DNA of 64,000 bases, taken from Xanthostigma xanthostigma (Eukaryota > Arthropoda > Insecta > Raphidioptera > Raphidiidae). The notes beneath the pieces were generated by a model, which made no database searches, was not told the DNA's origin, and saw only the letters and a program-made list of their open reading frames with translations. Both the position numbers and the translations under genes were made by a program. Every line of letters starts with the position of its first letter. The stretch's first letter is position 1. Positions 5,001-61,468 of the stretch are shown here, in pieces. The stretch covers positions 46,552,192 to 46,616,191 of the forward strand of contig OY754464.1 in assembly GCA_963575645.1 (NCBI GenBank). The letters are read 5' to 3'.

Positions 5001-8000
5001 ATTTATCAATACATTTCTGAAACAATCAGTCCCCGGTTTTATAAAGGCGCCTACTTTCAAACTTTGATAATAACTGACTTACCGACTTCACACAAAAACT
5101 CCAAAAAGTAGTTTTTATAATGTGTGGAAATAAATGTAAGTATGTTATAAAACACTTCAGTGGCTATCGTTGCAGTTTGTCGATCGAAATCAGCAAAATC
5201 GTTCAATCTTTGAATGCATCTTTCGTATAAAACTCGAGCCACTTTGGTACAATCTTTTAAATGTGCTTTGTTGTGTTGTAATTCAGCAGGTTTCATCGAT
5301 TTCAACGTCTGAATTAATTCCAGCGTAACTTGCATCACATAACGATGAAATTCGCGTTTCGATTTTAGCACGGATGTTTGTGCCTTCGTAGTCCACTCTA
5401 CCGATTCTCTATATGAAAAGAAATTTATAACTTATTTAAGACTAAGCTTAAGTTTATATTGCTGACCGCATTCCTAAACACTACAAACTGGATTGACGCC
5501 TTGAGGCGTCGTTGTGGTGAACTGAAAGCTCATTCAGCGCTTTGAAATGGTGCAGAAAGTACCAAATGCCGTGCTAATGGGATTGCGTTGGCACAGTAAC
5601 CTCCACATACCATTATGGTAGTGCAAGTGCATTAACAAGGCATTCGGTACCTTCAACATAATTTCGAGATGCTGGACAAGTTTTCAATTTGGAATACTTT
5701 CACCGTATTTGGCTTATAAGGAGGTTGATCCGTTACAGTCCCAATCAAAAGTAAGTCGAATTCTAAATGGGAACTTTTCCATAATATAAATTTTTACAAA
5801 AGGTTATAAGTCGATTATTGTCATAAAGGCATAAATAAATATTTTTTTAATATTAATCAATTATTTCTAACTTTTAAAATTTTTGTACAAAGTTAGGTTA
5901 AAAAAAATAAATTTATGTAAATATCTGTATTTTACATATTTTTTGCAGTAAATAATTAAAAAAAGAAATTAGAAGTAATGAAAATTAAAATTAAATCATT
6001 AAAAAGTTGAAAATTCAGTTAAAATTGTTAAAATTGTCAAGAATAAAAGTCCATAATCGAAAAGTGCTAATGTTTAATAATTTTTTTATTGATAAAAAGT
6101 CTCCTAATTAAATTGGAAAAAATATTAAAATATGCGTAAGACATTGATGCTTTATATAGTTAGTTTTCGGAACTGCTGACATTATTTGGTTATTTGTAAA
6201 AAATTAAAATGAACAGTTTGCATGCTAGGTTGACATATTTTCCATAAGACTACATGTAAATGTTTTTTTTAATTTTTAGCTTTATAAATCTCCTAATGAT
6301 TTTGGATTTTTTACAGAAAATTTTGTCATAAAAAAATCTATTAAAAAAAGTTTATTTCAGATTTTTTTCATTATCTTTGTAAAACGGCTCAACCTCCTTA
6401 TAAGAACTGTCGATCCAATTAGTTAGAGCAAGGGTCTAGTTGTCAAGAAAATGACATTGAAGACAACGTGACAGGCACCTGCCGAACATACTTCCACCTC
6501 TTAGCAGCTAAGCCCAATCAAAGCAGCTGAATCCAACTGAAGCAAATGTACATAATTCCAAGATGTTGCGACTGTTTTAGTTAAACTTACTTGTGTAATA
6601 AACATAAAAACTTATGAACAGTCCGCATGTTCAAAACAGTTGAGGGACATTTGAACGCTTGCATTTTGATAGAATGCTGTTTTTTCTGGGTAGAGTCGTC
6701 CTTCTTCCGTTTAGTTCCTTCAGCTTTCTTAGGTTTACTTATTGTCTATGAAACATTAATATAATATGTACATAAAGACATTTATAGTGCTTGAATAATT
6801 AACAGAAAAGTACTTTAGATCGCAAAAAGGGTGCTGTGTCAAGATCGCCAGAATTAAACTTCCTTTCTTCGAAACAACGTTGTTACCCTACATTTTTAAT
6901 CGACGAAAAACAAAAACGGAGGAGGTTCTCAAGTCGACGCGTATTTTTTTTTTTTTTTTTTTATTTATGTATGACCACGCATAACTTTTTACAGAGTAGT
7001 CCGATTTTGATAATTATTTTTTTGTTTGAAAGGGTATACCCCGAAGTTGGTCCCATATAAATTTGGTAAAAAAATTCCAACCTTAAGGGTAGGGAAACAG
7101 GGGATGATTGATTGTTCACTCACTGATTGTAATGTATGACCACACATAACTTTTTACAGAGTAGTCCAATTTTGATAATTATTTTTTTATTGGAAAGGGT
7201 ATACCCCGAAGTTGGTCCCATATAAATTTGGAAAAAAAATTCTACCCTAAGGATGGGAAAATAGGGGTGATTTTTTGGTCACTCACAGATTTTCATGCTG
7301 AGTTGTGTATTACAATAATTGTAAATTATACAGCCACAAAAAATTATAAAATAAAAACTTTTTAACAAAAAAATTAAACCGCCGAAAAACATAAAAGCAA
7401 AAAATAATAAATCTTTTTATTTAACTAAGTTCTATCTAAGTAGTTGAACGTATGTGACAGTCTAGTATATCTAAGTAATTTTGAGTCGGCGTCAAACAAT
7501 CAATGAACAAAGATCACTAAAAGAAATAAACAAATCAAATTAACAATGATACGTGAAATCTCCAGCGATAAACATTAACATTCCAAACATGCGCTCTCCA
7601 CACGACCACTCGCAAAGACGTATGCCCTCAGTGTGCCCGTTCGGGTTGCTCTGTCGCTGACATTAACTTCGTAAACGCTCAGAGATTTCCGGCGAAAGAT
7701 TGTTGACGCCGACTCAAAATTACTTAGATATACTAGACTGTCACATACGTTCAACTACTTAGATAGAACTTAGTTAAATAAAAAGATTTATTATTTTTTG
7801 CTTTTCAGTTTTTCGGCGGTTTAATTTTTTTGTTAAAAAGTTTTTTTAAAAATTTATGACAGAACAACATAGTAAGAATGACCCAAAGTTTTCGTTCACT
7901 AATTAGAATAACCAAGAAACCTTTGCTGTTGAACGCCTACAGTTTGCAAATAACCAAGAAACATGTTAGATAAATATTTATAGAAATACTAGCGGTCCGG

Positions 8001-17305: not shown

Positions 17306-17314
17306 ATCAAAATG
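17306..17314. repeat. Left 9-bp target site duplication (ATCAAAATG)
   Basis: It is identical to 32,629-32,637, immediately outside the GGGAG/CTCCC termini. Nine bp is the usual MULE duplication length. Confidence 0.88.
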
Positions 17315-18653
17315 GGGAGAACCTAAATTGCATACCCACGTACCAGTACGCAGTCTGCGTACCAATCAGCAGTAGCAAAAATGTTTCAATGGACTACCCC
17401 ATGGCTTTAAAATATCTGCGTACCGGTGATTTTCATCACTTTAAGGTGTATTTTGTTGCGTACCGACTGAAATATTGGATACTGATAATTTATTTATGTC
17501 TACAGAGTGATTTCACATCTAGTTCCCACTGAAAATGTCTGCGTACTGGCGATTTTCATCGCTGTAGGGTGTTATACTGTTGCGTACCGACTGAAATCTT
17601 AAAAAATGTTCATTTATTTACTTCTACAGGGTGTTTTCACACCTAGTACCCACTGAAAATGTCTGCGTACTGGCGATTTTCATCGCTCTAGGGTGCTATA
17701 CTGTTGCGTACCGACTGAAATCTTGAAAAATGTTCATTTATTTACTTCTACAGGGTGTTTTCACACCTAGTTCCCACTGAAAATGTCTGCGTTCTGGCGA
17801 TTTTCATCGCTGTAGGGTGTTATACTGTTGCGTACTGACAGAAATCTTAAAAAATGAACAATTATTTATGTCTACAGGGTGTTTTCACATCTAGTTCCTA
17901 CTGAAAATGTCTGCGTACTGGCGATTTTCATCGCTCTAGGGTGCTATACTGTTGCGTACCGACTGAAATCTTGAAAAATGTTCATTTATTTACTTCTACA
18001 GGGTGTTTTCACATCTAGTTCCCACTGAAAATGTCTGCGTACTGGCGATTTTCATCGCTCTAGGGTGCTATACTGTTGCGTACCGACTGAAATCTTGAAA
18101 AATGTTCATTTATTTACTTCTACAGGGTGTTTTCACATCTAGTTCCCACTGAAAATGTCTGCGTACTGGCGATTTTCATCGCTCTAGGGTGCTATACTGT
18201 TGCGTACCGACTGAAAGCTTGAAAAATGTTCATTTATTTACTTCTACAGGGTGTTTTCACATCTAGTTCCCACTGAAAATGTCTGCGTACTGGCGATTTT
18301 CATCGCTCTAGGGTGCTATACTGTTGCGTACTGACTGAAATCTTGAAAAATGTTCATTTATTTACTTCTACAGGGTGTTTTCACATCTAGTTCCCACTGA
18401 AAATGTCTGCGTTCTGGCGATTTTCATCGCTCTAGGGTGCTATACTGTTGCGTACTGACTGAAATCTTAAAAAATGAACAATTATTTATGTCTACAGGGT
18501 GTTTTCACATTTAGTTCCCACTGAAAATGTCTGCGTACTGGCGATTTTCATCGCTCTAGGGTGCTATACTGTTGCGTACCGACTGAAATCTTGAAAAATG
18601 TTCATTTATTTACTTCTACAGGGTGTTTTCACATCTAGTTCCCACTGAAAATG
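17315..18653 (+). repeat. Left arm: terminal segment plus ~10 units of 124 bp
   Basis: About 98 bp of unique terminus, with the palindrome GTACGCAGTCTGCGTAC, precede the array. Unit starts (GTCTGCG) fall at 17,537, 17,661, 17,785, 17,909, 18,033, 18,157, 18,281, 18,405 and 18,529, a strict 124-bp step. Each unit holds GCGTACTGGCGATTTTCATC, a second GCGTACCGACTGAAAT and CTACAGGGTGTTTTCACA. The outermost unit is the most diverged. Confidence 0.92.
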
Positions 18654-19087
18654 TGAAACAAGTCTTATACCTCAATTCTATGTTCACGGTGAGCAAAATA
18701 AGTGAGATAAATCTTGTTTTGTTTGTCAGTGAAAATTCAAAATAATTTTATATTTTTTGATTTTTCAAATATTCTAAAGTAACAATTCAAAATATGGGTG
18801 ACAGAAGCCTGAATTACAAAGCTAAGTCATTGCTGTCCCACTTTTTATTGCACAGCACTGTACCTATAAAAGTACGTCTTATTATTTATTATTATTATAG
18901 TAATCAACAGGTATAAACCTAATAACAGACTACACTATAACAAATATAAAGAAATATAAAGAAAGCCTTAAATAAGCGTATACAAAAAAGAGATAAAAAA
19001 TAAAGACAATTTGAGAATATGCAAAATTTAATAATAGTACATAATATTATATAAAAATGATACAGTATTATTATCGAGCCTATTAAT

Positions 19088-19665
19088 TCAGAGTGCCCGT
19101 CGAAAAAAATTTTATTGATACATACTCTCCCCAAACTTTGTATATGGCTACATTAGGCCTAGTCTGACATCTATTTCCTCTATGACTTTTCTTGATTTTG
19201 GGGCGTTTTCCCTCTAATCTTTCCGAAAGATGTCGTTTTGACGACATGTAAAAAATTATAGATACTGTTTGTTTTTTTAATTGGATAGCTCAAAAACTTC
19301 AACCAAAACACTAAAATAATGTTCTCTGACAAATAATATGAACCATTTAAAATGTCTGACACCTCGAATATGGTCGACAAATTCGAAGTGTCAGACATTT
19401 TAAATGGTTCATGTTATTTGTCAGAGAACATTATTTTAGATTTTGGTTGAAGCTTTTAAGCTATCCAATTAAAAAAACAAACAGTATCTATAAATTTTTA
19501 CATGTCGTCAAAACGACATGTTTCGTAAAATTTAGAGGGAAAACGCCCCAAAATCAAGAAAAGTCATAGAGGAAATGGGTGTCAGACTAGGCCTAATGAA
19601 GCCATAATATACAAAGTTTGGGGAGAGTATGCATCAATAAAATTTTTGCCGACAGGCACTCTGGC
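19088..19665. mobile_element. Foldback MITE downstream of the transposase gene
   Basis: A near-perfect palindrome of ~280-bp arms is centred near 19,375, with ends CAGAGTGCCCGTCG and CGACAGGCACTCTG. I could not find a convincing target duplication. Its right edge is about 30 bp from the stop codon, so it may fall in the transcript's 3' UTR as a long hairpin. Confidence 0.75.
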
Positions 19666-19693
19666 TATAAAGAATTGTTAATAAAAATAATTT

Positions 19694-22600
19694 TTAAGTC
19701 GAAGCTTTTTTTGCGGCACATGATACACAAACATATCGTTTTGGCAACGTTGCAGTAAGGGATAATTGTTCGCAAACTAAATGCATCCAGTGATTACAAA
19801 CTTCACATAAAAGTAACGGACCCCGTTTGCATGTGCTAGTTTGTAAATAGCACACCGATGAATCTTCATCCCAGTAGTTACTGATGATATCTGACAAATA
19901 TTTTATAGTATTTCCGTCCATAGATTTGTCCGATGAAGTCAAATATTTTGGTACGGGAGGAATATTTACAACTTGTTTCCGTAAGGTAACGTAGTCCTGG
20001 TTGGGGCCTGAAATAACTTTATATCAGTCTCATGTGGTTCGGGGTAGTTAAAATTTTGAAACAATTTCCTACGCTTCATAATTTTTGAATTCCGATTAAG
20101 TATGAGAGAATCAATTATTTACTTAAGAGCTGTTAACAATTTTTCAAACATTTATAAGGTCCGGTATTCGGCAATGAGTAGGTATCGAATTTACATTCAA
20201 ACAGAACGGTCAACCCCAATTGTAAGAAAAGATAGTAAAGTTCAAAATTTGAAAAAAATAGTTCATTAATTTGTATTAAATATAGCCTTTAATTGACTTA
20301 AGTATTTATAGTAGAACTAGTGGTGACAACATGGCATCGATAATTATCGGACAAAAGAAAAGAAAATTAACAACGGACCAGTAGGAGCAGATAAAACACA
20401 ACTTAAGGTGGTCGCTTTAAATTCCGTAATTTTGTTGTTCTACTCTATACGGATGCCAAAGGAGCTCCCTGTTTGAAGTATTATAATGTAATATTATTCG
20501 CCTGTGACCAAAAAAAGCGGGATTCCTCAAGTAAATGTGAAACACATTTTGTTTATTTACTTTTGGCTTCCGATGAAATCATTGATCTATAAGTTTAATG
20601 TAACTGATGTTCAGTAATTATTTATGTACAAACCTGGAAATGGGTTTTTCATGTAATATTCAATTTTTTCTTTGATGAGAGCTCTATACGTATGCATGTT
20701 TTTGAAATATTTTGCGTAATCTAAATTTCTTCGTATCATTAATTCTGCATACAATAGGACGAATGCTCCGCAGTCATAGTCATTGTTCTGTCGTGGAATA
20801 TCTTCAGGAGAGTACAGCATGAAAGTACTTTCTTCTAAACCATTAAATAGCTCGTAGCCCCGATATAGTTTTAATATAAATTCCAGATGACCAGTTAAAA
20901 CATTTGAAGACAAACTATCCAAATATAAAATAATATTTTGCTTTCTGAAGACTATAAATAATCTGCAATGTGACTGATATGCTATGGGGAAAATAACAAT
21001 GTCATATCTGGGAATGGAAAATTGAATAAAATTTTGCAATGCATACTTAAACCCTTCTTCTTCAAACATTATGTTTTGAAGAACTATGGTATCGACAGAA
21101 AAAATGGTTACATTATTACAGTTACCTTCCTCTTCGTGAATTAATATTGGAATATATATATCGAATATTGCATCGCCCAGATAAAGGTCAGAAGATTTAT
21201 AAACAGCTTCTGGTATAAGTGCATTTAAAGCGCTGCTATAAAAAGTTCTATCAAATATTTTGTATAACTGATGGCCAGTGTCGGATTTTTTTTTTGGTGT
21301 AGATGTAACAATACTAATTTCGCCTTCACTTATTGCTGTTTCGGTGAACGGTGGTATAAATCTCTTTTTCACAGCTTCGATTTGTCCGAACTTTGTCGGC
21401 AATAACAAAGTATTTTTTTGAATAGTTGCGGTGTCTATCATTGCGTCATCAGCTGCTTCCACAATTGTTATGTCCTTTGGACCACGCTTTCGGCCAGAAC
21501 GGTAGCCTCTCCCTTTGCGCATAATGTTCGATAACTTTGCGTGTTTTTGCTTCTGCTCTTCCATACCAATTGACATTTTCGCAGCTCTTATATGAACACA
21601 GTGGTGTTTGGCGTTGCATGAACATATTTGAGTTGGATATAGAGTGACGACAAATTTTTTCTTTAAATCAATAGAGGTAACAATAAAAGCTTGCTGTTCC
21701 GGTACCAGCCGAACATGTCCTTCCATCAACAGTGTTTTTGCAATGGAGTAGTTTGTGTAGGGCCTTTCTTCATCTACATTTCTATAAATGTCTTTGTTGT
21801 AGAAGACGTATGGGAGATCTTCTAAAGGTAAAACGCCGCTCGGGTATTGTACGTCTGCGGGATCTCGTAGTAGCTTTACGTACTCATTTTTTAATCGATA
21901 GTTTCCTAAAATGAAATAATTGTCACTAACCGCGGTAACCGCGCAGAGTAAAATACATTAAATAACTTAGACTTTTGTAACCAAGTAAAAGTGTATTCTA
22001 AATGTACACAGGAATCGCAGACTACTGGTTTCGTCCTTATTGGGACTCATCAGTGCGACGCGCCTGTGCACAGATAGAATACATCGAACTCCTTTCATAT
22101 ACTTATTCTTTCGAACAAGATATAAGCAGGAGGTAACTTTTGTGATAATTGTTTCAAAGAGAGGAATGAATCTGGATTGCTCGAACACCTACCCTTCGAG
22201 CTAATACCCCGACAGGCGTTGGGACTCATCAGTACGATGCGCCTGTGCTCAGATAGAATATATCGAACTCCTACATATACTTATGTATTCTTCGCACAGG
22301 CGCATCGCACCGATGAGTCCCAATACAGAACGAAACCAGTGGTCTGCGATTCCTGTGTACATTTAGTATACACGTTTACTTGGTTTGGCTTAGCGAAGTT
22401 AGTTCGCTTTTGTACGTAGAAATGACACACCGATGTCCAATCCCAGCATGGCTTGGGTGACATTATGTGTTGTCTCATAGTACATTTCAGGATTATTTGG
22501 ATTTAGTTCTATAATTAAACGCCTGTCAGGGTATTAGTCCGAGGAGTAGTTGTTCGAGCTATTCAGATTCATTCCTCTCTTCTAAACAATTTTCTAAAGA

Positions 22601-24449
22601 AATTTCAACTATTTTTAGGCAATCGTTAGAAAGTTAATAGGTACTAATAGATTATCTTGTAAACATAATATAATACATAGAAACACGTACCCATGTTGCA
22701 GAATCCTCTAAGTATTTCTTTTTCATAATACAAATCCAATTTGTATAGCGTAAGGGTTAAAACCTGCAAATTGACCTCCTTGTGTCCTAAACAGTTCTTT
22801 AGAACATTATTTAATGATTCTGCAGAGTTATTTGTAATTCCACTGCGCTCTTGATATTTTTTGTACTAAAACATAAATCATACTTCATCCTCCCATCCCA
22901 ATTCCATCATATTTATAGCAACTTATTTTTGATTTGTATTTATTTTGTGGACTTTTTACAAACCTTATTATTAAGGTTCGTCAGGTTTTACTATTAAAGT
23001 CTTTAATATTATCGATCTTGGCTTAAAGTTTTTGGAATATTACTTTTACAATGTTGATGCAAATTGAAGACTACGCTTTTTATTTCAGAATGAAGTCATA
23101 GGTCGTAGGTATTCGAAATTCAAAATTTGTTACTTATGGGCTGCGTAATACACGACAGGCTAAGAAAATGAAATAATTCTTAAGGAAATTACCTCTAGCA
23201 ATATCCATTTTCCACTGGCAACTACAGCATCATAAATATTTTTCTCAAAATAGTTTTTAAACCTTTGGCTCCACTGTTCTGACATGTTGTCGTACTTCTC
23301 TTGGAATTCAACAAAACTGTTGCTATCTAACAAGTCCCAAGTGTGATTTACATAAACTGAACTGTCTGAAATTTCTACATTTCTTTGCTTTTTCAGCCAA
23401 TATCTCACATCTTGTTGAATGTGATTCCAGCAGTAAAAATTTTTAGATTTGGGCAATTCTAGTTTTATTGCGTTGTTTATAGCTTTTTCTCTATCCGTAA
23501 CAATAGGAATTCCGTTAATTGATGGACAAAATTTACCCATGTAATTAAAAAAACTTTGATGCACCTCTGTAGTTTTTTTATCGTGAATAAGGTATGCTAA
23601 GGGAATGACTGGTTCGTTAAGTAGCAAAGGATGCTTGTAATTTAGTGGTGATACATAAAAGTCTCCCAAATTAAATGTTGTGTCGTACGACAACATGGTT
23701 TCGTTGTATTTACTCATATCTTCAAAATGAATTTTCGTTGTATTATTACACAATATTATGTGAAAATCTTTCACTAATACCATATGTTGAACAAAAGATT
23801 CGATTTCCTGGTGCAAAAAATATACGCCAATAATATCATCATTGGATATTAACTTTTTGCTCCGTTCAAAATACACGGTGTTGGAAACCTGCTTTCTATC
23901 TCTCGGAATTAAAACAGGTACTAATGCTGGAGGAACGTCTTGTTGCATCTGTGATTTGTAAACATAATGAGGTGGAGAAGCCAATTTACTCTTCTGATCA
24001 ATCAATACCGAAGGTGCCGTTCGTACATGCGATTTATCTAAATTATATTTTCTGTTTCCATGCGGTAAACGTGATATGCCTGTTAAAGATCCTCCGTAAT
24101 GGATTAACGTTTTGGTACCATATCTTTTGTTATTGAAAATATGCAACGCACGTCTATAAAAAATTTTTTCTGATCCAATGCCACTATAATAATGGCACGA
24201 AATAAGCGGGTTAATTTTAGGCAGGTGTTTAATGCTATAATCTCGCCACGAAAAACCGTCCGCTTTCCAATCTAATTTCTTGTTTTCGTTTTCGTTGGAG
24301 TAAATATACAACTGTCCAGGTTTAGGATTTACTGCAGGATGAGTTATGCATTGAGAAATATCAGATTCTTTTAAAATTTTGTAATATTCTTCAGGACTAA
24401 GCCAATTGTAGGATATCTGGTACGGTTCGTCCATAGTGAGAATCCACAT
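19694..24449 (-). CDS. MULE transposase fused to SWIM, ULP1-type protease and PHD finger (4 exons, ~1005 aa)
   Basis: Exons: 23193-24449, 22691-22865, 20634-21905 and 19694-20007. All are GT-AG with agreeing phases (0, 1, 1). Residues ~43-120 look like a CG-1 DNA-binding domain (PGQLYIYS, ADGFSWRD, SCHYYSG, FYRRALHIF, TLIHYGG). The DDE core has D256 (SYDTTF), D319 (IVTDRE), CWNH at 340-343 and E435 in GITNNSAESLN, typical of MULEs. A SWIM finger follows (CSC...CVH, 572-582), then a basic GRKRGPK stretch. The C48 protease domain has H790, D807 (YLDSL), Q850 and C856 (DYDCGAF), so the full catalytic set is present. The C-terminus is a PHD finger (CEVCNHWMHLVC, CVSC). An in-frame TAA precedes the first Met; M6 is an alternative start. 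It should catalyse movement of the surrounding element; the protease and PHD roles are unknown. Confidence 0.87.
22007..22068 (-). ncRNA. Type I hammerhead ribozyme
   Basis: On the minus strand, helix I pairs CACAGG and TCGCA with TGCGA and CCTGTG around an internal loop. The core CTGATGA is followed by helix II (GTCC...GGAC with an AATA-type loop). GAAA comes next, with a minimal helix III (AC/GT, five-base loop) and the cleavage triplet GTC. Every catalytic-core position I know is present. The short helix III fits minimal hammerheads of Penelope-like elements and retrozymes. It lies in an intron on the same strand as the transposase gene, so it would be transcribed with it. Confidence 0.82.
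22295..22357 (+). ncRNA. Degenerate inverted hammerhead copy
   Basis: It has the same helix I sequences (CACAGG, TCGCA, TGCGA, CCTGTG), GAAAC and GTC, but the core reads CCGATGA instead of CTGATGA and helix II has a mismatch (GTCC...GAAC). It is probably inactive. Its orientation is opposite to the intact copy. Confidence 0.7.
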
Positions 24450-26149
24450 TCCAAATTACTAAACAATAATAATTATCACCATGATTTTGGGTTGATTAAT
24501 ACAGGGAGCGAGTTTGAAATACGTGCATTAAATACAATTCTAAATGGAACATGAAATTTTAAGCTGATGAAGTTTTCTAGCTCTTCTATATTTTAAATAT
24601 TGTGATATGTCATAATAGTCCAAGAACGATCTTCGTGAAATACCTAAAATCTCAAACGGCTAAAAATTTCAGTGATCGTTCTTGGGGTTACAAGAAACTA
24701 TTCTGACTATGAAAAAGTGTGCTCCGATTTGCAGTTAGGGTAGAAACCGCGCCTTTAAATTTTGTTTTCTAATAGGGAATATGCATGTGGTTTAAATTTA
24801 CATGATTTTTTTTCCAAGAATCTTTATTGTCCGGACATTATGCCTAAACAATTATTTTACTATTTAGTTCGCTTTTAATTGTAAAAAATATTAATTAAAA
24901 AGTGCAAAATAAGCGAGGGAAATTCAATTTTGCGAAACGCATCACTATTGGTCGAAACAAAACGTGACGTCACATGGCACGTCACGTCATCTGATTAATA
25001 TTTTAATTTAATTTTCGGTAGATGGTATAACTGGAGTATGTTCTCGCGTATGGTTTATCGTTCATTTGTTAATAATATTTTAATTTGACGTTACAAGCTA
25101 CTCCTGTCAAATTAATAATCAAAAAACTGTCATTTAGACTTCACGTTTCTCGAGTTGTTGATGTTGCCATGGTAACTTTTTTTGATACAGTCTAAATTAT
25201 TTATAATCAAAAAATAATAATATAACGATAGGTATATGTTTCATAGTTTGAATAAAAATAATAATATTGATTACAAATATCTTTTATTTAAATTTTGTAA
25301 TTCCCGCCAGTGCCATTTTAACCCATAATAAACCCTCGTCTTTATTATTGGTAGAATAAGTTGCAGCGTAGCCAAATTTGTTAATGTAAATTGTAGTTGC
25401 GTCCAAATTATACAGTTATTTAGTCCAAAAAATGTTAAATATAAATTATTTACCTAAATGGTCAATAAATTTAATTTTTTTTATATGTAAATAAAAAGGT
25501 TTTTTTAATCTATTACAGTTATTTTTATAAAAAAATCTTTATTTAAACATAAGCAAAAATAGGTTTAAAGACAAATCGTGTACTGATTCTCTATATCTAC
25601 CATGTTAAATTTCTATTTTTCAAGTATTAATATTTCAAAAACTAAGCGGTCAAAAATTTTCAAAAAATTAATTTAGTTTACATACACTATTATGATTGTA
25701 TGGAAAAAAATTTATTGAAAAATCTTTATTTTTTTTCATGCGCTAACCTCCTTAAAACTGAAAATTGTTATAAAATAACTGTAAAACTATAGTAACAAAC
25801 ACTGAACTGACAGAACGTGCCATGTGACGTAACACAAGACCCGCGAAAAATGGCGGCGTTCAAACAAGTCGAATTTTATCGATGTTTTAAAATTTATTTT
25901 AATAATTAATTTGAACATTTCCAAGAGTGTTTATATTTTTTATGGTGTTATAATGATGTAAAAAGTGAATTAAAAATATAAAAAAAATGAATGCATATAC
26001 CCTATTATCTCACAAACTATAAGATATATGAAAAAAGGTTTCAACAAAAAATTGTAGATTTTTTTTTTAATTCTGGTTCAGTCAAAACCTTAATTAGTGC
26101 CATAAATTATGTTATACGTGCATTTTAATAAGGATAAATTGTTGAATAA

Positions 26150-26275
26150 AATGGGAAAAAAAGATATCATATCGCAAGTGCTGTGTTGTTGATTGTAAAA
26201 ATACATCAACTAAAAATCCAGAATTACAATTCCACCGTTTTTCTGGATTTTCTTATGAATTAGAGAGGAAATAAT
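26150..26275 (+). pseudogene. THAP zinc-finger fragment, frameshifted
   Basis: The frame reading KCCVVDCKNTSTKN then LQFHRFSG matches the first half of a THAP domain (C-x-x-x-C ... FHRFP). The likely ATG at about 26,151 is out of frame with it across a run of seven A. The frame stops soon after (ELERK, stop), so the C-H half of the finger is missing. It is best read as a relic of a THAP gene or THAP-bearing transposon. Confidence 0.55.
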
Positions 26276-27701
26276 ATGTTTATCATTTATGTAGTTTTTT
26301 TACTGACATATTGTGTATAAATATTTTTTTATAAGTAAGAATAAAGTTGATTTCCGTGGGTTTGTAAGTTTTTGACTGAACCAGATTTTAAAAAATCAAA
26401 CACGAGATGGCGCAAAAGTCGCGTGTCAGAGACACTTTCCTAGCGTATAACTGCAAAATACTAATTCGAAGATGCTTGCAGATGTGTACCTGATTTTATT
26501 CCAGGAATTAAAATGTCGACCAAACTTTGGCATATTTTATATAGGTACATTCATCCAAACAATTAAAGAAACAGATTTTTTTTAATATTTTCGGTTTTTT
26601 TTGTAGAGCTGTAACTATCTTTGTGAAAAATGGTCGTATCGAGATGAACAAAAAACCATTTTAAACAAAAACTATATCCGAGAAAACATTTAGCAATAGA
26701 ACAAAAATATTATCAATACATACCTGTTTCCAAAATTAGTACGTTGGTTAAACAAAGTTCATACACTGTGTAAACACTAAAAAAATCAACTTCGATAGTT
26801 TTTTAAAACAATAACACAAAAATTGAAACACAACAATTTTCAATGTCTATATAGCTTAATTTCAGCTGGAAAATTCACTGCAGGTCACCTAGCTAATTAT
26901 TACTCGCACCGCATTTAGAGATCTGGAAAGCATATGTAACTTGTTGTAGCTTCAAACAAACTGATGATGCTCAAATATTTATTCCAGATCGAATTTTCTA
27001 GAAAAATTCAAATTCATGGTAGGGGGTGGATTTTAATAAGTATAGGTGAAAATATATAATCGTAAATATATTTAGTGACAATAGAGACAATAGGAGTGCT
27101 GCATATTTATTTGTCTTGAATTTGTAATCATGAATGGATATATTGTAGTGTTGGTGGTTAATCAGGTTCTTTTAAATTAGTAAAACTATTGAATTTGATA
27201 TAATGCTTTATTTACTTTACCAACGTCGACCTATGCCAGCTCGCGCTGGCATAGCCACGTGCGTCCACCACCTGACTTCTTCCTTCCTTCCAAATACACA
27301 TTTATTTATATCATTCAAAATGAAAACGTCGCGTTATTAACAAGAACGATTATTACTAACCGTTTTAAATTAACATATTTTGCAGTTCTACATTTCAAAT
27401 GATATACGTAACTATAGCCTACTTACTGATGTATCCACTACACCTCCCCCGAAATTTTAAAAATAAAACATATTCGAAGGATGTGTTTTGTTTTTACATA
27501 CTTATAATACAATATCTTAATTTAAATATACAAAAAAATATAATTACATTACTATTACAATAAAATTTGTTTCATTATTGATATTAACACATATTTTTTT
27601 TTTCAATAATCATTAAATTCGTCTTAATCATTTTAATATATATTTCTTCAATAACAAATGTGAATTTTCATACGGTATAGTGCGTACTACTATTTTAATA
27701 A

Positions 27702-28000
27702 CTTTAAAGAATAGCTTCTGTTGCTACATTGTTGAAACACCCATTGTTACATGTCTATATTAGAAAAATTTATTTCTCAAACAATGTCACCATCGGGATA
27801 CGAAAGATTCGGGGTTCGTATCCCGATGGTGACATTGTTTGAGAAATAATTTTTTTTTTTTTTTTTATTTAACACACAAATACAACAAAAAAGGTGCATC
27901 GACCATGTGATCATTAGCACTGTAAATAAATTTTTCTAATATAGACATGTAACAATGGGTGTTTCAACAATGTAGCAACAGAAGCTATTCTTTAAAGATA
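27702..28000. repeat. Hairpin element with an insertion in one arm
   Basis: The left arm 27,702-27,806 (AAGAATAGCTTCTGTTGCTA...) is matched inverted by 27,817-27,850 and 27,928-28,000. Between the two right-arm pieces is a poly-T run and about 60 bp that the left arm lacks. The loop is only about 10 bp. Confidence 0.78.
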
Positions 28001-29449
28001 TTTCTTCAATATTCATTTTCTTTTATATATAATTGTTACAATTCATTAATATTCGTCTCTTTATTATTTCTTCATTATTCAATTCTTTCTCAATATTTAT
28101 TTTAATACATATTCCTTCAATTATTCATTTTCTTACATAATTTTTCCAATTATCTCGGCAAAACGACTCGCGTGGTGCCGATCGAGTAAAAGGATTTATT
28201 AATTAATCATACAAATTTCCTATTCCTTTCTCATAACAATAATATAACATATATATCTTCCTTTATTCTTGTCAATATAATTTTTCTATGTACTTTTAAT
28301 AGGTATATGTTCTCAGAAGTATTAATCTTTTCTAAATATATCTTAATAATTATTACTAATTATAATATCCAAAGTATCTATTCAATAACTAACTATTCAA
28401 AATTAAAATTTCACTTATCTACAAAATAGAAAATAATAACAATTTAGTCGATTATTTCTTTGAAAATGCAATTATTATATCTTTGAAAAAAATTTGCTGA
28501 TTGTGAATTTATCTATTGTTATAAACACTAAACTGCCTACGATTGTTTTTGTTAAAATTTCTGTTTGCACTTGTGTATTCTTTATTGCTGAATTGTGCAG
28601 AGTTGCCATTTTAAAATACACTCTATGTTACAGTATATCAGGTTTATTTTAAATTACATAATTTAGATTATCTGCAATAAATATTATGTTCATTTTTTCC
28701 GCAAAAATTGAAGCAACATTGATTCTAACATAGACGACAGTATTGTTTACATTAAATGAATACACGGAATGTCACACATTAGATGCAAAATATAATATAT
28801 TTTATGTATCTAATATTAGTTACATATTGTCGTCATGAGTAGTATCAAAGTTGCTGCAATCAAAACCAACAATGTTGATGTATTCAACTTAGTTCATGCG
28901 AATGTCACATTATGTTTACAAAAACTATGCATCTAATGCATTCCAAGTTGGGCAGGATATCCTCTATTTGTATATTTAATATATTTTGTATATTTTTATT
29001 GAGGAAATAAAATAAATAAAAATAAAAATACAATTAGCTGCATTTTTCCATCATCAAATGTACCTATCATAAATGCTTCAAATTCAATTATGAATGTTGT
29101 CTCAATTAAATGACCCAAAAAATTGTTACATTGTTGATACACTATTCATTCAATACTTTTCTACATTTTCGGTGCTTACATTACACTTTTCTGATGATGT
29201 CAATTTGATTTAAATCTCTCATATACTAATTTCGTCAAATAAAATACGTTCAATATTCTGTAAAATTTGGATAATTCATTTTCATCATACCCATGAGTCT
29301 CATACTTGTCTATCTGGGAAAGTATTAACTATTAAATATTTATAACACAGACATACACCGAGATTTATTTATGTTTCTGTTAACCTTGCCAATATGAACG
29401 AGCTATATTTATGTTATCGCTAGCTTACGCGCAGAGTGCACTGTACTAA

Positions 29450-32400
29450 CTGTTGACACCCTGTAGATATAAACAAATGTTCATTTTTGAAGATTTCAGT
29501 CAGTACGCAACAGTATAACACCCTAGAGCGATGAAAATCGCCAGTACGCAGACATTTTCAATGGGAACTAGATGTGAAAACACCCTGTAGAAGTAAATAA
29601 ATGAACATTTTTCAAGATTTCAGTCGGTACGCAACTGTATAGCACCCTAGAGCGATGAAAATCGCCAGTACGCAGACATTTTCAGTGGGAACTAGATGTG
29701 AAAACACCCTGTAGACATAAGTAAATGTTCATTTTTTAAGATTTCAGTCAGTACGCAACAGTATAACACCCTACAGCGATGAAAATCGCCAGTACGCAGA
29801 CATTTTCAGTGGGAACTAGATGTGAAAACACCCTTTAGACATAAATAAATGTTCATTTTTTAAGATTTCAGTCAGTACGCAACAGTATAACACCCTACAG
29901 CGATGAATATCGCCAGTACGCAGACATTTTCAGTGGGAACTAGATGTGAAAACACCCTGTAGACATAAATAAATGTTCATTTTTTTAAGATTACAGTCGG
30001 TACGCAACTGTATAGCACCCTAGAGCGATGAAAATCGCCAGTACGCAGACATTTTCAGTGGGAACTAGATGTGAAAACACCCTTTAGACATAAATAAATG
30101 TTCATTTTTTAAGATTTCAGTCAGTACGCAACAGTATAACACCCTACAGCGATGAAAATCGCCAGTACGCAGACATTTTCAGTGGGAACTAGATGTGAAA
30201 ACATCCTGTAGACATAAGTAAATGTTCATTTTTTAAGATTTCAGTCAGTACGCAACAGTATAACACCCTACAGCGATGAAAATCGCCAGTACGCAGACAT
30301 TTTCAGTGGGAACTAGATGTGAAAACACCCTGTAGACATAAATAAATGTTCATTTTTTAAGATTTCAGTCAGTACGCAACAGTATAACACCCTACAGCGA
30401 TGAATATCGCCAGTACGCAGACATTTTCAGTGGGAACTAGATGTGAAAACACCCTGTAGAAGTAAATAAATTAACATTTTTCAAGATTTCAGTCGGTACG
30501 CAACTGTATAGCACCCTAGAGCGATGAAAATCGCCAGTACGCAGATATTTTCAGTGGGAACTAGATGTGAAAACACCCTGTAGACATAAATAAATGTTCA
30601 TTTTTTAAGATTTCAGTCAGTACGCAACAGTATAATACCCTACAGCGATGAAAATCGCCAGTACGCAGACATTTTCAGTGGGAACTAGATGTGAAAACAC
30701 CCTTTAGACATAAATAAATGTTCATTTTTTAAGATTTCAGTCAGTACGCAACAGTATAACACCCTACAGCGATGAAAATCGCCAGTACGCAGACATTTTC
30801 AGTGGGAACTAGATGTGAAAACACCCTGTAGACATAAGTAAATGTTCATTTTTTAAGATTTCAGTCAGTACGCAACAGTATAACACCCTACAGCGATGAA
30901 AATCGCCAGTACGCAGACATTTTCAGTGGGAACTAGATGTGAAAACACCCTGTAGACATAAGTAAATGTTCATTTTTTAAGATTTCAGTCAGTACGCAAC
31001 AGTATAACACCCTACAGCGATGAAAATCGCCAGTACGCAGACATTTTCAGTGGGAACTAGATGTGAAAACACCCTTTAGACATAAATAAATGTTCATTTT
31101 TTAAGATTTCAGTCAGTACGCAACAGTATAACACCCTACAGCGATGAAAATAGCCAGTACGCAGACATTTTCAGTGGGAACTAGATGTGAAAACACCCTG
31201 TAGACATAAATAAATGTTCATTTTTTAAGATTTCAGTCAGTACGCAACAGTATAACACCCTACAGCGATGAAAATCGCCAGTACGCAGACATTTTCAGTG
31301 GGAACTAGATGTGAAAACACCCTGTAGACATAAGTAAATGTTCATTTTTTAAGATTTCAGTCAGTACGCAACAGTATAACACCCTACAGCGATGAAAATC
31401 GCCAGTACGCAGATATTTTCAGTGGGAACTAGATGTGAAAACACCCTGTAGACATAAATAAATGTTCATTTTTTAAGATTTCAGTCAGTACGCAACAGTA
31501 TAATACCCTACAGCGATGAAAATCGCCAGTACGCAGACATTTTCAGTGGGAACTAGATGTGAAAACACCCTGTAGAAGTAAATAAATTAACATTTTTCAA
31601 GATTTCAGTCGGTACGCAACTGTATAGCACCCTAGAGCGATGAAAATCGCCAGTACGCAGACATTTTCAGTGGGAACTAGATGTGAAAACACCCTTTAGA
31701 CATAAATAAATGTTCATTTTTTAAGATTTCAGTCAGTACGCAACAGTATAACACCCTACAGCGATGAAAATCGCCAGTACGCAGACATTTTCAGTGGGAA
31801 CTAGATGTGAAAACACCCTGTAGACATAAGTAAATGTTCATTTTTTAAGATTTCAGTCAGTACGCAACAGTATAACACCCTACAGCGATGAAAATCGCCA
31901 GTACGCAGACATTTTCAGTGGGAACTAGATGTGAAAACACCCTGTAGACATAAGTAAATGTTCATTTTTTAAGATTTCAGTCAGTACGCAACAGTATAAC
32001 ACCCTACAGCGATGAAAATCGCCAGTACGCAGACATTTTCAGTGGGAACTAGATGTGAAAACACCCTGTAGAAGTAGATAAATGAACATTTTTCAAGATT
32101 TCAGTCGGTACGCAACTGTATAGCACCCTAGAGCGATGAAAATCGCCGGTACGCAGACATTTTCAGTGGGAACTAGATGTGAAAACACCCTGTAGACATA
32201 AATAAATGTTCATTTTTTAAGATTTCAGTCGGTACGCAACAGTATAACACCCTACAGCGATGAAAATCGCCAGTACGCAGACATTTTCAGTGGGAACTAG
32301 ATGTGAAAACACCCTATAGACATAAATAAATGTTCATTTTTTAAGATTTCAGTCAGTACGCAACAGTATAACACCCTAGAGCGATGAAAATCGCCAGTAC

Positions 32401-32628
32401 GCAGACATTTTCAGTGGGAACTAGTTGTGAAAACACCCTGTAAACATAAATAAATTATCAGTATCAAATATTTCAGTCGGTACGCAACAATATACACCTT
32501 AAAGTGATGAAAATCACCGGTACGCAGATATTTTAAAGCCACGGGGTAGTCCATTGAAACATTTTTGCTACTGCTGATTGGTACGCAGACTGCGTACTGG
32601 TACGTGGGTATGCAATTTAGGTACTCCC
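29450..32628 (-). repeat. Right arm: ~25 units of 124 bp in inverted orientation
   Basis: It is the reverse complement of the left-arm unit (AACACCCTGTAGACATAAAT..., GCGATGAAAATCGCCAGTAC). Marker spacing from 29,551 to 32,404 is 23 steps of 124 bp. The diverged terminal unit and unique terminus mirror the left end. Two unit subtypes mix: AGAAGTAAATAAAT with CTGTATAGCACC, and AGACATAAATAAAT with CAGTATAACACC. The array is 2.5 times longer than the left one. Confidence 0.92.
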
Positions 32629-32637
32629 ATCAAAATG
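32629..32637. repeat. Right 9-bp target site duplication (ATCAAAATG)
   Basis: It is identical to 17,306-17,314. The same 9-mer occurs a third time, inverted, at about 33,263 in a repeat resembling the left flank. Confidence 0.88.
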
Positions 32638-33879: not shown

Positions 33880-34650
33880 TAACCGACGAAAAACAAAAAC
33901 GGAGGAGGTTCTCAAGTCGACGCGTATATTTTTTTTTTATTTTATTTATTTTTTTTTTTTATTTATGTATGACATAACTTTTTACAGAGTAGTCCGATTT
34001 TGATAATTTTTTTTTGTTTGAAAGGGTATACCCCGAAGCTGGTCCCATATAAATTTGGTAAAAAAATTCCAACCCTAAGGGTAGGAAAACAGGGGATAAT
34101 TGATTGTTCACTCACTGATTGTAAACACATAACTTTTTACCGAGTAGTCCAATTTTGATAATTCTTTTTTTATTGGAAAGGGTATACCCCGAAGTTAGTC
34201 CCATACAAATTTGGAAAAAAAATTTCAACCCTAAGGGTAGGAAAACGGGATTATTGATTGTTCACTCACAGATTGTAATGTATGACTACGCATAACTTTT
34301 TACAGAGTTGTCCGATTTTGATAATTATTTTTTTATTGGATAGGGTATACCTCGAGGTTGGTCTCATATAAATTTGGAAAAAAATCCTACCCTAAGGATG
34401 GGAAAATAGGGGTGATTTATTGTTCACTCACAGATTTTCATGCTGAGTTGTGTTCGTGAACGCTCGGAGATTTTCGGCGAAGGATTGTTGACGCCGACTC
34501 AAAATTACTTAGATATACTAGACTGTCACATACGTTCAACAACTTAGATAGAACTTAGTTAAATAAAAAGATTTATTATTTTTTGCTTTTCAGTTTTTCG
34601 GCGGTTTAATTTTTTTGTTAAAAAGTTTTTATTCATAAACAAATCAGCTT
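33880..34650. repeat. Second copy of the 6.9-kb composite repeat
   Basis: It starts AACCGACGAAAAACAAAAAC then GGAGGAGGTTCTCAAGTCGA. It has three ~150-bp units with GGGTATACCCCGAAG-type sequence and ends in the arm with TAGATATACTAGACTGTCAC. Compared with 6880-7850, one inverted arm is missing. Confidence 0.72.
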
Positions 34651-57803: not shown

Positions 57804-60800
57804 GTGAAGGATAAATTCCTTAAAGAATTTTGCATCCACAAGCCCCCTAAACTTCGGGTTCGTCACCGTCACACAAGGGATACTTGCGGAGCAAGTTGAA
57901 ACCATAACCGCGTCTCAAACCATGAAATGAGTTTGGGTCGTGCGCACGGAGTACACGGAGCGACCCAATAAGCACAGCCTTCTGCATGCGGCAGACTAGT
58001 GATTCAGCATTGCGCTGACATGCCGGAATAGCTTTCATACTTGCCAACAGTGACGGTTTGGCTCCTCCAAGAACACCAATTATAAGGACAATTAATTTGA
58101 CAGAATACTCTGGGTACTGCTTCCTGAGCTCAAAAAGTAGGTCTTGATATTTTGTCCGTTTGTCAGTCTCCTTCGCGGCTATGTTCGTTTCAGCAGGAGC
58201 TGAGAACTCGATGACATACATAGATCGCGCAGATTTATCAAGGAGAACTATATCAGGCTTTGTAGCTGAAAGTTGCCTGGTAGTACTGAATGAATAGTTC
58301 CAGAAAATTTTACATGATTCATTCTCTACAACGGACTCAATATCTCCAGGAACATAAGGCAGAACGGGAGTTTTATCAATACCGTAATGATGCCTTAGGT
58401 GATAGTATAAGACTCTTAGAGCAGCATTGTGGCGATGGATGTAGGCACAGCTTGCGTAATAACTGCATGCCGATAAGAGATGCATGAGCGTCTCTGGATG
58501 CGATCGACATGCTCTGCAAGAAGTATCTATTACTTCCGCATCCATAATTAAACGGCGGTACACAAGAGTGTTTATAACGCCGTCTTGACACGCCAAAACA
58601 AATCCCTCAGTTTCAGACTTCAGCCCAGCTGACCGCAAGAAGGCAAACGTCAGATCCTTTGATAAACCACATGTATCGATGTTCTTATAATAAATTCCAT
58701 GCATCGGTTTATCGGTATGTTGTTTGAGCAGGAATTTTTGCTCTGCCTTCTTTATTGTATGCCTTGCCTGATCTGGCGTTAGAGATGCAAACGATGCATC
58801 TTGACGTTTTCTAGCGGAACTGAAGTCAAAATCAAGGCTGAGTTCATTTGCTGCTCTGTTTGCTGCCTGAAACAGAAACGCCCCAACACCCGCATATTCG
58901 TGATCACGCACGAGCTGTAAAAGCGGGTCTGAACTGTTACAAACCGCAATAGCAGTACCCAGTACAATTCTATTATGAAGACACTCCAAGCTGAGTAATC
59001 CTCTCCCTTCGAGATGACGCGGGAGGTACAAACGAGGAACGGACGATTTGGGGTGAAGACTCCTATAGATGGTCATCATTTTTCTGGTGCCCCTATCAAG
59101 CTGTTGCAACTCGTTAACCGTCCATTTGAATGCCCCAAAAGTGTAGAGCAGGACTGGAACAGCAAGCATGTTCGTAGCAGCGACTTTGTTCTTCCCCGAC
59201 AACTCTGAACTCCAGATTTGCCGCAGGATCCGTCGATACTTGCTGCGGAGAGCCTCTTTGACGACTTTTACGTCCTGAACGTGACTCTCACTCACACCCA
59301 GATACGTGTAGGACTCTCCGGCGTCAAGATGGTGAACGACGCTTCCATCAACAAGTTGCACGTCTTCCCCGTAGTCCCCATTTCGTCCTTTTTTAATATG
59401 CAGAACCGCACACTTATCTAATCCGAATGTCATGCCGATATCCTCACTGTATACTTGTACGATGTTGAGCGCGAGCGTTAGATCTGTGGCGCTCGAGGCG
59501 TAAAGTTTTAAGTCATCCATATAAAATAAATGGGTGACTTTATGCCTACGATTGGATGGGACACCGCACATATACCCACGGCCACGCCTCAACGAGATGG
59601 AGATAGGCAATAGTGAGATGCAGAAAAGGAGGGGACTCAAGCTGTCACCTTGAAACACCCCCCGGTGGTATGATACCAAATCTGTTGTCACAACGCGCTT
59701 ACCGGGTGTTATGATAAAACGCGTCCTCCAGAGTGGAAGTAGGTGTTCTATACATCTCACTATATCAGGGTGGACCTTCAGACACTTAAGTAAAATGATC
59801 AAAAGATCATGCGATGTAGTGTCAAACGCTTTTCTATAGTCCACCCAAGCCATTGACAGGTTGCGTTTGTATTGGACAGCATCTTGACAGATGCATCTGT
59901 CAATCAGCAAATTGTCCCTACAACCTGCAACGCCGCGTTTAGAGCCTCTTTGCTCATAAACGTCTCTCCAAATCGGCTCGATATGTCGCAGGATGCGTTC
60001 ATTGAGGATGGAAGTGAACGCTTTGTATACAGTGTTAAGACAGGTTATCGGACGATAATTTTTCGGATCAGATAAGTTTCCCTTCTTGGGGATGAGAACA
60101 GTGCGGCCTTCTGTCAGCCAAGTTGGTATAGGCTCCATATTTGTTACCAAAGATGTGAAGATGCGAGCTAGATGCTTGTGTGTGGATGGGAACTTTTTCC
60201 ACCAAAAGTTGTTAACAGCATCTATCCCAGGAGCTGAAAAACTCTTTTTGCCTGAAAAGGCATTCTTCACATCTGCCTCGCTGACTGACAATGGCGCTTC
60301 ATCATCCACCAGGTGTCGGTTGCAGTACTGACTAAATAAATGGATAGCTGGAGTATCTTCATTAAATGGAGGTTTGGTCTCATAGAGTCCCTTCCAGAAA
60401 CTCTCAACCTCTCTAGCAGTTGGCGGTGTATAAGCAAGTGGCGGACTTGTCTTAAAGACACGGGAAGGGCATGAATTAAAGGTGGCGTTCTCCTTTATGG
60501 CCCTGTTACGCCTTACTAACTTCTTCTTGGCAGAAGTTAGCGCCCGTATCTTGTCCAGGCCATGCTGCTTGATGGTCTGCAACGTGATTTTATTCAGTGT
60601 GTGATACTGTGCCCTAAGAGAGCGCGCAATGCGTCGGACTTTGGCTGTAAACTTACGGCCCGATAATAAATACTCTGTCACACACTGAATCCTGGACACC
60701 AACTGCCTTGCTGACTTTATCTTTGCGTCCAGCTGTTTTATACGCTGCCCAGACTTATCTCCTGCATGTCTGGAAAGTGCAGGGGTGGCTAAAACATTAG

Positions 60801-61468
60801 CTGCAGCGTAAACGGCGCAATCTACAGTCCAGAGGTCAGAATCATCTGCAAGGAACTCATCCAAAACTCCATCCATTTCGGCCAGATGGGCGGGCCGCAG
60901 CGATAATTTGTGGTGGACTGATCGCTGTCTGTCCTTCAAGTCAACATTGGTGCTCATAATGGTTAGGAACCGCGTCTTAAAATCATTATCAACAATGACA
61001 GCTGGAGACCATGGTGCGACACTGTTGGCCGCTTGTGGACTCGGCGGCGTAGCTGCCACTGGATTAGGCGGTTCCGGGTCAAATCCTGTTCTTCGCAAAT
61101 GGTTGACATGGTCTCGAAGATTTTGGGCCGAGAAATTTGCAAGTTCTGGATGCATCTCGCACCAAACAGAATGCATCCGTGCCATGTACCCTCTTTGCGA
61201 AGGGTCACTGTTGGCGTGACATGCCAAAAGGTCACGCTTTAGGTCGTCCGTCCACACCATGCGGACGGCCGCGTTTTGTGTGCCACTCCCAACTCTACTA
61301 GGGCCTCCATCCGAGACAGGCCGGTTGTGGGTGGCTTTATTAAATTTCCGTTTAGGAACCAATGTTTCTGCACAGGGGTGGTTGGCCCCTTGTGCAGACG
61401 GCAGCATTTGTCAGATTAAATCTGTCCAGGGCACGCCACGAGGAGGCTGCTGATCCGATTTGTGCCCC
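57804..61468 (-). mobile_element. R4/Dong-clade non-LTR retrotransposon
   Basis: About 3.66 kb between two (ATT)n runs, with one long minus-strand ORF, a ~43-bp 3' UTR and a ~60-bp leader. Dong of Bombyx mori is known to insert in TAA repeats using a restriction-like endonuclease, and the protein here has that domain plan. No poly(A) tail is visible; the element ends in the repeat. Confidence 0.88.
57847..61407 (-). CDS. Reverse transcriptase with restriction-like endonuclease (R4/Dong), 1186 aa
   Basis: It copies its RNA at a nicked target (target-primed reverse transcription). Residues ~50-106 resemble a Myb-like DNA-binding helix set (RMVWTDDLKRDLL...LRDHVNHLRR). RT motifs run from SAPGIDAVNNFWWK (391) and PKNYRPITCLN (448), to motif A VDYRKAFD with D523, motif B GVFQGDSLSP (583) and motif C FYMDD (628-632). 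A CCHC knuckle (C964, C967, H976, C981) precedes the REL endonuclease PD at 1051-1052 with E1067 (KPDIVLLD, YVIEFSAP). There is no frameshift or internal stop, so it may be active. The start is the first Met of the frame; no upstream zinc finger is seen. Confidence 0.9.
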   Translation of the reverse strand: MLPSAQGANHPCAETLVPKRKFNKATHNRPVSDGGPSRVGSGTQNAAVRMVWTDDLKRDLLACHANSDPSQRGYMARMHSVWCEMHPELANFSAQNLRDHVNHLRRTGFDPEPPNPVAATPPSPQAANSVAPWSPAVIVDNDFKTRFLTIMSTNVDLKDRQRSVHHKLSLRPAHLAEMDGVLDEFLADDSDLWTVDCAVYAAANVLATPALSRHAGDKSGQRIKQLDAKIKSARQLVSRIQCVTEYLLSGRKFTAKVRRIARSLRAQYHTLNKITLQTIKQHGLDKIRALTSAKKKLVRRNRAIKENATFNSCPSRVFKTSPPLAYTPPTAREVESFWKGLYETKPPFNEDTPAIHLFSQYCNRHLVDDEAPLSVSEADVKNAFSGKKSFSAPGIDAVNNFWWKKFPSTHKHLARIFTSLVTNMEPIPTWLTEGRTVLIPKKGNLSDPKNYRPITCLNTVYKAFTSILNERILRHIEPIWRDVYEQRGSKRGVAGCRDNLLIDRCICQDAVQYKRNLSMAWVDYRKAFDTTSHDLLIILLKCLKVHPDIVRCIEHLLPLWRTRFIITPGKRVVTTDLVSYHRGVFQGDSLSPLLFCISLLPISISLRRGRGYMCGVPSNRRHKVTHLFYMDDLKLYASSATDLTLALNIVQVYSEDIGMTFGLDKCAVLHIKKGRNGDYGEDVQLVDGSVVHHLDAGESYTYLGVSESHVQDVKVVKEALRSKYRRILRQIWSSELSGKNKVAATNMLAVPVLLYTFGAFKWTVNELQQLDRGTRKMMTIYRSLHPKSSVPRLYLPRHLEGRGLLSLECLHNRIVLGTAIAVCNSSDPLLQLVRDHEYAGVGAFLFQAANRAANELSLDFDFSSARKRQDASFASLTPDQARHTIKKAEQKFLLKQHTDKPMHGIYYKNIDTCGLSKDLTFAFLRSAGLKSETEGFVLACQDGVINTLVYRRLIMDAEVIDTSCRACRSHPETLMHLLSACSYYASCAYIHRHNAALRVLYYHLRHHYGIDKTPVLPYVPGDIESVVENESCKIFWNYSFSTTRQLSATKPDIVLLDKSARSMYVIEFSAPAETNIAAKETDKRTKYQDLLFELRKQYPEYSVKLIVLIIGVLGGAKPSLLASMKAIPACQRNAESLVCRMQKAVLIGSLRVLRAHDPNSFHGLRRGYGFNLLRKYPLCDGDEPEV

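Follow-up and report, generated by a model that had tools for sequence, protein, structure and literature searches.

Why are the inverted arms of foldback transposons built as tandem arrays? The arrays could be a binding platform, a by-product or a protection, and for many foldback elements no copy with a transposase is known. This old question is raised again by a 15,314-bp element within a 64,000-nt stretch of the Xanthostigma xanthostigma genome (hereafter the window; positions 46552192-46616191 of contig C1). An earlier note on the window had read this element as a complete MULE of the foldback kind, with an open gene, inverted arms made of arrays and a 9-bp duplication, and our analysis supports that reading. 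The element is very probably an autonomous cut-and-paste DNA transposon of the Mutator superfamily, of Rehavkus or foldback type, because it combines defined ends, target-site duplications, an open gene, an empty site for one copy, near-identical dispersed copies and coding-less derivatives with the same ends. Since one genome holds the complete element, a sister copy longer by three units, coding-less derivatives and an empty site, the question of why the arms are arrays becomes directly testable.

Ends, arms and dispersed copies

The element occupies positions 17315..32628 of the window, exactly as the earlier note had it, with termini GGGAG...CTCCC. By sequence comparison, it is flanked by a perfect 9-bp target-site duplication, ATCAAAATG, at 17306-17314 and 32629-32637; the same word occurs elsewhere once more on the plus strand (42708) and twice on the minus strand. 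The two ends need no gap in an alignment of their outer 300 nt, and a total of 1,340 nt can be aligned between them at 93.5% identity, giving the terminal inverted repeats that characterize a MULE. Read inward, each end consists of a 94-nt unique terminus followed by an array of 124-bp units, the two arrays lying in opposite orientation. The left terminus (GGGAG..., 17315..17408, plus strand) and the right one (...CTCCC, 32535..32628, minus strand) are 97.9% identical. The left arm (17409..18654, plus strand) is an array of ten units (period 124, 10.1 copies), and the right arm (29456..32534, minus strand) is an inverted array of 25 units (period 124, 24.8 copies). In each arm the outermost unit has diverged from the others (84.3% identity on the left, 84.9% on the right), while the two outermost units are 94.8% identical to each other. 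The arms therefore end as previously described, in a common diverged unit and a unique terminus.

We searched the host genome (623 Mb, 28 contigs) with the first 186 nt of the element, the counts being lower bounds. There were at least 109 matches, of which at least 14 reach the unique terminus and at least 95 are array units. By position, 12 of the 14 terminus matches pair into six elements, including the copy in the window, and two are single ends. The element's termini are accordingly not a chance resemblance. The other five elements are a full copy (C1:5406344-5422029), two coding-less derivatives of 2,899 bp each (C5:47276277-47279175 and C3:28588874-28591772) and two degraded copies (C10:12655441-12670718 and C10:11476982-11498184, the latter without the outer 18 nt of one end). 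Three of these copies have terminal duplications of their own, namely CAAAAATAC and GGTATATTG (9 bp each) and GTCTAAGG (8 bp, C5 derivative). The duplication lengths in four copies, the window's included, are thus 9, 9, 9 and 8 bp, all within the range of about 8-11 bp that is typical of MULEs.

The two full copies are nearly the same sequence. In a direct comparison covering 15.1 kb, the window copy and the copy at 5.4 Mb of C1 agree at every position of the first 12,142 nt and of the final 2,978 nt, and the interior (18655..29455) has zero substitutions. The second copy is longer by exactly 372 bp, or three units, which sit in the right arm between units 23 and 24, numbered from the outside. 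A unit-by-unit comparison shows that the units flanking this insertion are the same in both copies and that the extra block resembles units 16-18 of that arm at 99.5%. Therefore, the length of the array changed while not one of the compared bases did. The two coding-less derivatives differ from each other by a single base. They have arms of 6 and 12 units around a middle of about 0.5 kb. Apart from its first 57 nt, which match the junction between right array and interior, this middle has only short and weak matches.

The earlier note had also suggested looking for empty sites, and we found uninterrupted paralogues for the insertion at 5.4 Mb of C1. This copy interrupts a dispersed repeat whose joined flanks are unbroken in all 40 matches that were scored among 2,252 candidates. 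All six retrieved paralogues (L042-L047) are uninterrupted at the junction; the 9-bp target is complete in five of them and differs by one base in L045. The repeat itself is a dispersed, high-copy sequence with at least 40 copies at 98-99% identity. The near-identical second copy with its own duplication, these empty sites and the single-base distance between the C3 and C5 derivatives indicate that the element is real and apparently recently mobile.

Elsewhere in the window lie two separate tandem arrays (6967-7291 and 33972-34436) with units of 163-165 bp that look alike by eye, and a 1,187-aa open frame (57847-61410, minus strand) that by eye resembles a non-LTR retrotransposon reverse transcriptase.

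The predicted transposase

The element's gene lies on the minus strand and is predicted to have four exons with GT-AG borders and a consistent frame, giving a coding sequence of 3,018 nt with stop codon and a protein of 1,005 aa. The intact Mutator-type gene that the earlier note placed between the arms is thus open, but it is spliced from four predicted exons rather than read as a single frame. Exon 1 (23193..24449, predicted splice sites) carries a CG-1 domain (Pfam PF03859, profile positions 3-113 of 116; residues 13-118; 24096..24413) and a MULE transposase domain (PF10551, 2-98 of 99; 23412..23693). Exon 2 (22691..22865) contains the motif ITNNSAESLN with the likely catalytic E, placed by eye against the MULE motif. 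Exon 3 (20634..21905) contains CSCNAKHHCVH, SWIM-like by eye, and an Ulp1/C48 peptidase C-terminal domain (PF02902; 20716..21018). Exon 4 (19694..20007, predicted splicing) carries a PHD finger (PF00628; 19718..19834) and ends with the stop codon. The SWIM-like motif, the MULE D/D/E motifs and the H-D-C residues of the C48 domain were all picked out by eye against the motifs of these families.

In the full predicted protein, the MULE domain scores 31.8 bits (cut-off 27.6, E 1.9e-7), which places the protein among MULE transposases, and the C48 domain scores 41.2 bits (cut-off 20.7, E 2.2e-10). The CG-1 domain scores 24.8 bits (cut-off 23.5, E 2e-5), or 27.8 bits with exon 1 alone. With its exon alone, the PHD finger scores 28.3 bits (cut-off 24), and a PHD finger is a feature of Rehavkus. 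All four exons are identical in the full copy at 5.4 Mb of C1, and the coding parts of the C10 copies have stops, gaps or missing parts. Further transposase fragments lie at 9.04, 12.11 and 12.68-12.69 Mb of C10, so that all degraded coding copies found are on that contig. Weak MULE relatives at 11.33 and 9.86 Mb of C10 (31% and 29% identity) were too distant to be counted as copies. Just downstream of the last predicted exon, the window has nested inverted repeats (19068-19684) whose arms measure 78-166 nt and are 83-94% complementary; they may be a small inverted-repeat element within the transposon.

CG-1 is the domain by which the CAMTA proteins, calmodulin-binding transcription factors, bind DNA. 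A CG-1 profile search of the host genome returned six places: two on C2, three in copies of the element and a weak one on C9. The two C2 matches are read as exons of the host CAMTA gene. The C9 match (26.1 bits, one stop) was dropped, its surrounding 3.2 kb showing no transposase similarity. Exon 1 had no relatives among phages and none confirmed among viral contigs, where one pattern-matched stretch is unconfirmed, and it matched no solved structure at E up to 1. The host CAMTA exon had three matches to solved structures at E 0.54-0.77, which we disregarded.

Host protein families were also surveyed. The chorion profile (PF01723) had no match in the host genome and was positive in no control genome either. 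The 30K profile (PF03260) had one match at 28.5 bits (cut-off 25), in a protein with weak matches to 30K proteins of solved structure (E 2e-4 to 7e-4); this is mild support, if anything, for the lepidopteran origin that the earlier note suggested. The odorant-binding family had 10 matches, one of which is best matched by structures of the THP12 carrier protein and an odorant-binding protein; the presence of this family points to an insect host.

The repeated word, the arrays and rival explanations

What might the protein recognize at the element's ends? Counted in the inward sense and with the termini included, the word TGCGTAC occurs 19 times in the left arm (plus strand) and 51 times in the right arm (minus strand). 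In the opposite sense it occurs once per end; there is one occurrence in the interior and three in the remaining 48.7 kb of the window. Within the terminus, TGCGTAC and its complement form the palindrome GTACGCA-GTC-TGCGTAC (element positions 32-48; 17346..17362 in the left terminus), a candidate paired transposase site, and unit type A has TGCGTAC twice. The 94-nt terminus, read on both strands, and unit type A have 13 occurrences of 7-mers in common, 10 overlapping TGCGTAC and three A+T-rich. Simple shuffling of the terminus letters, repeated 2,000 times, gave 1.5 common 7-mers on average and never reached 13. The arms thus look like directional arrays of a likely transposase-binding word. 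The sites of CAMTA proteins are of the ACGCG type, to which TGCGTAC bears only partial resemblance. By analogy with Galileo, whose THAP domain binds sites within the tandem repeats of its long terminal inverted repeats (PMC3688188), TGCGTAC is probably the binding site of the transposase, which the CG-1 domain would read.

We propose the following mechanism. The CG-1 domain of the 1,005-aa protein would bind the repeated TGCGTAC in termini and arms, and a multimer of the protein would join both ends of the element. The MULE DDE core would then cut, with insertion through 9-bp staggered cuts. The arrays would offer many binding sites at once, as multivalent platforms, and so make the protein more specific for the element's own ends. 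They could lengthen or shorten by unequal exchange or slippage, and arm length may therefore change ahead of single bases. It is possible, though we hold it tentatively, that the transposon recognizes its ends by CG-1 with the arrays as platforms and that the CG-1 domains of CAMTA and of the transposase have a common origin, whether the domain passed from transposon to regulator or the reverse.

The units themselves show patterns that fit such turnover. We compared them with the outermost unit and all units outside 121-127 nt left out. In the window copy, mean identity within the two arms is 95.5% (36 pairs) and 94.9% (276 pairs), compared to 93.2% between arms (216 pairs); identical pairs number 3 of 36 and 20 of 276 within arms and 0 of 216 between them. 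To judge from these sequences, this pattern fits local exchange within each arm. The C5 derivative has identities of 88.9% in the left arm, 93.2% in the right and 91.7% between arms, with 2 of 55 between-arm pairs identical, and the C10 copy at 12.66 Mb has 92.9%, 86.1% and, between arms, 90.0%. Because these two are less clean than the window copy, exchange between arms seems to occur as well.

Several points weigh against this account of the element. The splicing of the gene into four exons is a prediction, the CG-1 score is barely over its cut-off in the full protein (24.8 versus 23.5 bits), and the PHD finger falls slightly under its cut-off of 24 when the full predicted protein is scored (23.1 bits, E 7.8e-5). 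The abundance of TGCGTAC in the arms is no proof by itself, since any word of a repeat unit necessarily recurs with the unit. When the two full copies are aligned with MAFFT, the gaps scatter over several spots and one mismatch appears, which we read as a misplaced gap because the direct comparison of both copies has none. Empty sites are shown for one of four insertions, that at 5.4 Mb of C1. The 9-bp duplications that the earlier note proposed to look for at other copies are present at two of them, but the duplication of the C5 derivative has 8 bp and the C10 copy at 12.66 Mb has, in place of 9 bp, a direct duplication of its flanks, 129/124 nt long, which immediately adjoins both termini (identical in 123 of 129 aligned columns). 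The latter is either an aberrant wide-stagger insertion or an insertion between pre-existing tandem copies.

Could the copies be assembly duplicates or segmental duplications instead of transposition products? For the C10 pair, this explanation stands. The two copies lie 1.2 Mb apart, and their flanks match when one of them is inverted (531 bp at 98.9%, 947 bp at 95.4%); the best reading is that a single older insertion was duplicated later. For the other four copies it is contradicted, since within the C1 pair, and likewise within the C3/C5 pair, the flanks differ and each copy has a duplication of its own, and the copy at 5.4 Mb of C1 breaks a dispersed repeat at a site that is intact elsewhere. 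As a general explanation it is thus extremely improbable. A captured host satellite, in which a 124-bp satellite came first and a MULE then took it as its arms, is only slightly less improbable. The window copy does look satellite-like in its array structure and in the similarity of its units, about 93-95%. However, the unit search, which scored all 14 first-look candidates and skipped very common words (its counts being lower bounds), returned 146 matches, every one within the six element copies; this is not proof of absence, but no unit was seen outside the element, no long array independent of the transposon was found and hence no independent satellite is visible in the assembly. In addition, terminus and unit have core words in common on both strands, in keeping with a unit that was amplified from the end of the transposon itself. 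The earlier suggestion that this locus links a satellite to a transposon is consequently not upheld, also because array-armed elements have already been described (Rehavkus-1_TC with TCsat23, Tm1 and Tetris).

A different objection concerns function. The arms might act through folding or through the host silencing machinery and not serve as binding sites at all, since long inverted arms are able to fold back and small-RNA effects of long MULE terminal inverted repeats are discussed by Dupeyron et al. 2019 (PMC6446971). We consider this unlikely, though clearly less so than the two preceding alternatives, because the core word is directional and common to terminus and units. The CG-1 domain is a concrete candidate for the arm-binding part of the protein, and it connects a transposase with a family of transcription factors.

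Comparison with known elements

Drosophila FB/NOF elements have array-built inverted arms, a 9-bp duplication and, in some copies, a protein of the MULE superfamily. The present element has the same kind of arms and duplications, but here the gene lies within the same complete element. The closer published match is Rehavkus, on account of the PHD finger and the tandem-repeat termini, and the element is probably of Rehavkus type, with minisatellite arrays of 124 bp at both terminal inverted repeats. Rehavkus elements are described as having 9-bp duplications, a PHD finger and a minisatellite; they occur in arthropods and annelids, and the few known are described only in Repbase (Dupeyron et al. 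2019, PMC6446971). A survey of arthropod MULEs gives lengths from 1.4 to 10.0 kb and uses Rehavkus as outgroup (PMC13359780). Rehavkus-1_TC of Tribolium, of 9.5 kb, has 164-bp satellite units in its inverted termini (TCsat23; PMC6446971, PMC10218199). It is like the present element in its 9-bp duplication, PHD finger and minisatellite termini, whereas ours is 15.3 kb long, has 10 and 25 units of 124 bp and carries CG-1 and C48 domains that are absent from the available text of the published Rehavkus descriptions, a comparison by description only.

Tm1 of root-knot nematodes is a foldback MULE that itself encodes a transposase (PMC3169594). It resembles our element in composite terminal inverted repeats, variable numbers of tandem repeats, 9-bp duplications, an intron-bearing MULE transposase and coding-less derivatives, and differs in its repeats of 13-15 bp, its length of 2.5 kb and its Phantom-type FLYWCH-MULE protein of 496 aa; the 'Cg-1' of that paper is a gene name and not the CG-1 domain. 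Tetris of Drosophila virilis, an example of a foldback element without transposase (PMC4079207), likewise has tandem repeats in its terminal inverted repeats, duplications of 8-10 bp and changes of unit number between near-identical copies, which in Tetris are alleles. Unlike our element, it is non-autonomous, and its 220-bp unit also forms long satellite arrays, which were not seen here. Galileo (PMC3688188) shares foldback-like long terminal inverted repeats with tandem repeats that hold transposase-binding sites, only candidate sites in our case, but belongs to the P superfamily and has a P-type transposase with a THAP domain.

Among the papers listed, the literature search found no work joining the CG-1 domain with a MULE, although Repbase lay outside it and may hold CG-1 unremarked; it gave no match for NOF together with MULE, WRKY and PHD. 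Within the literature searched, a CG-1 domain on a MULE is therefore new, while the kind of element that carries it, a foldback MULE with array-built arms, is known and rare.

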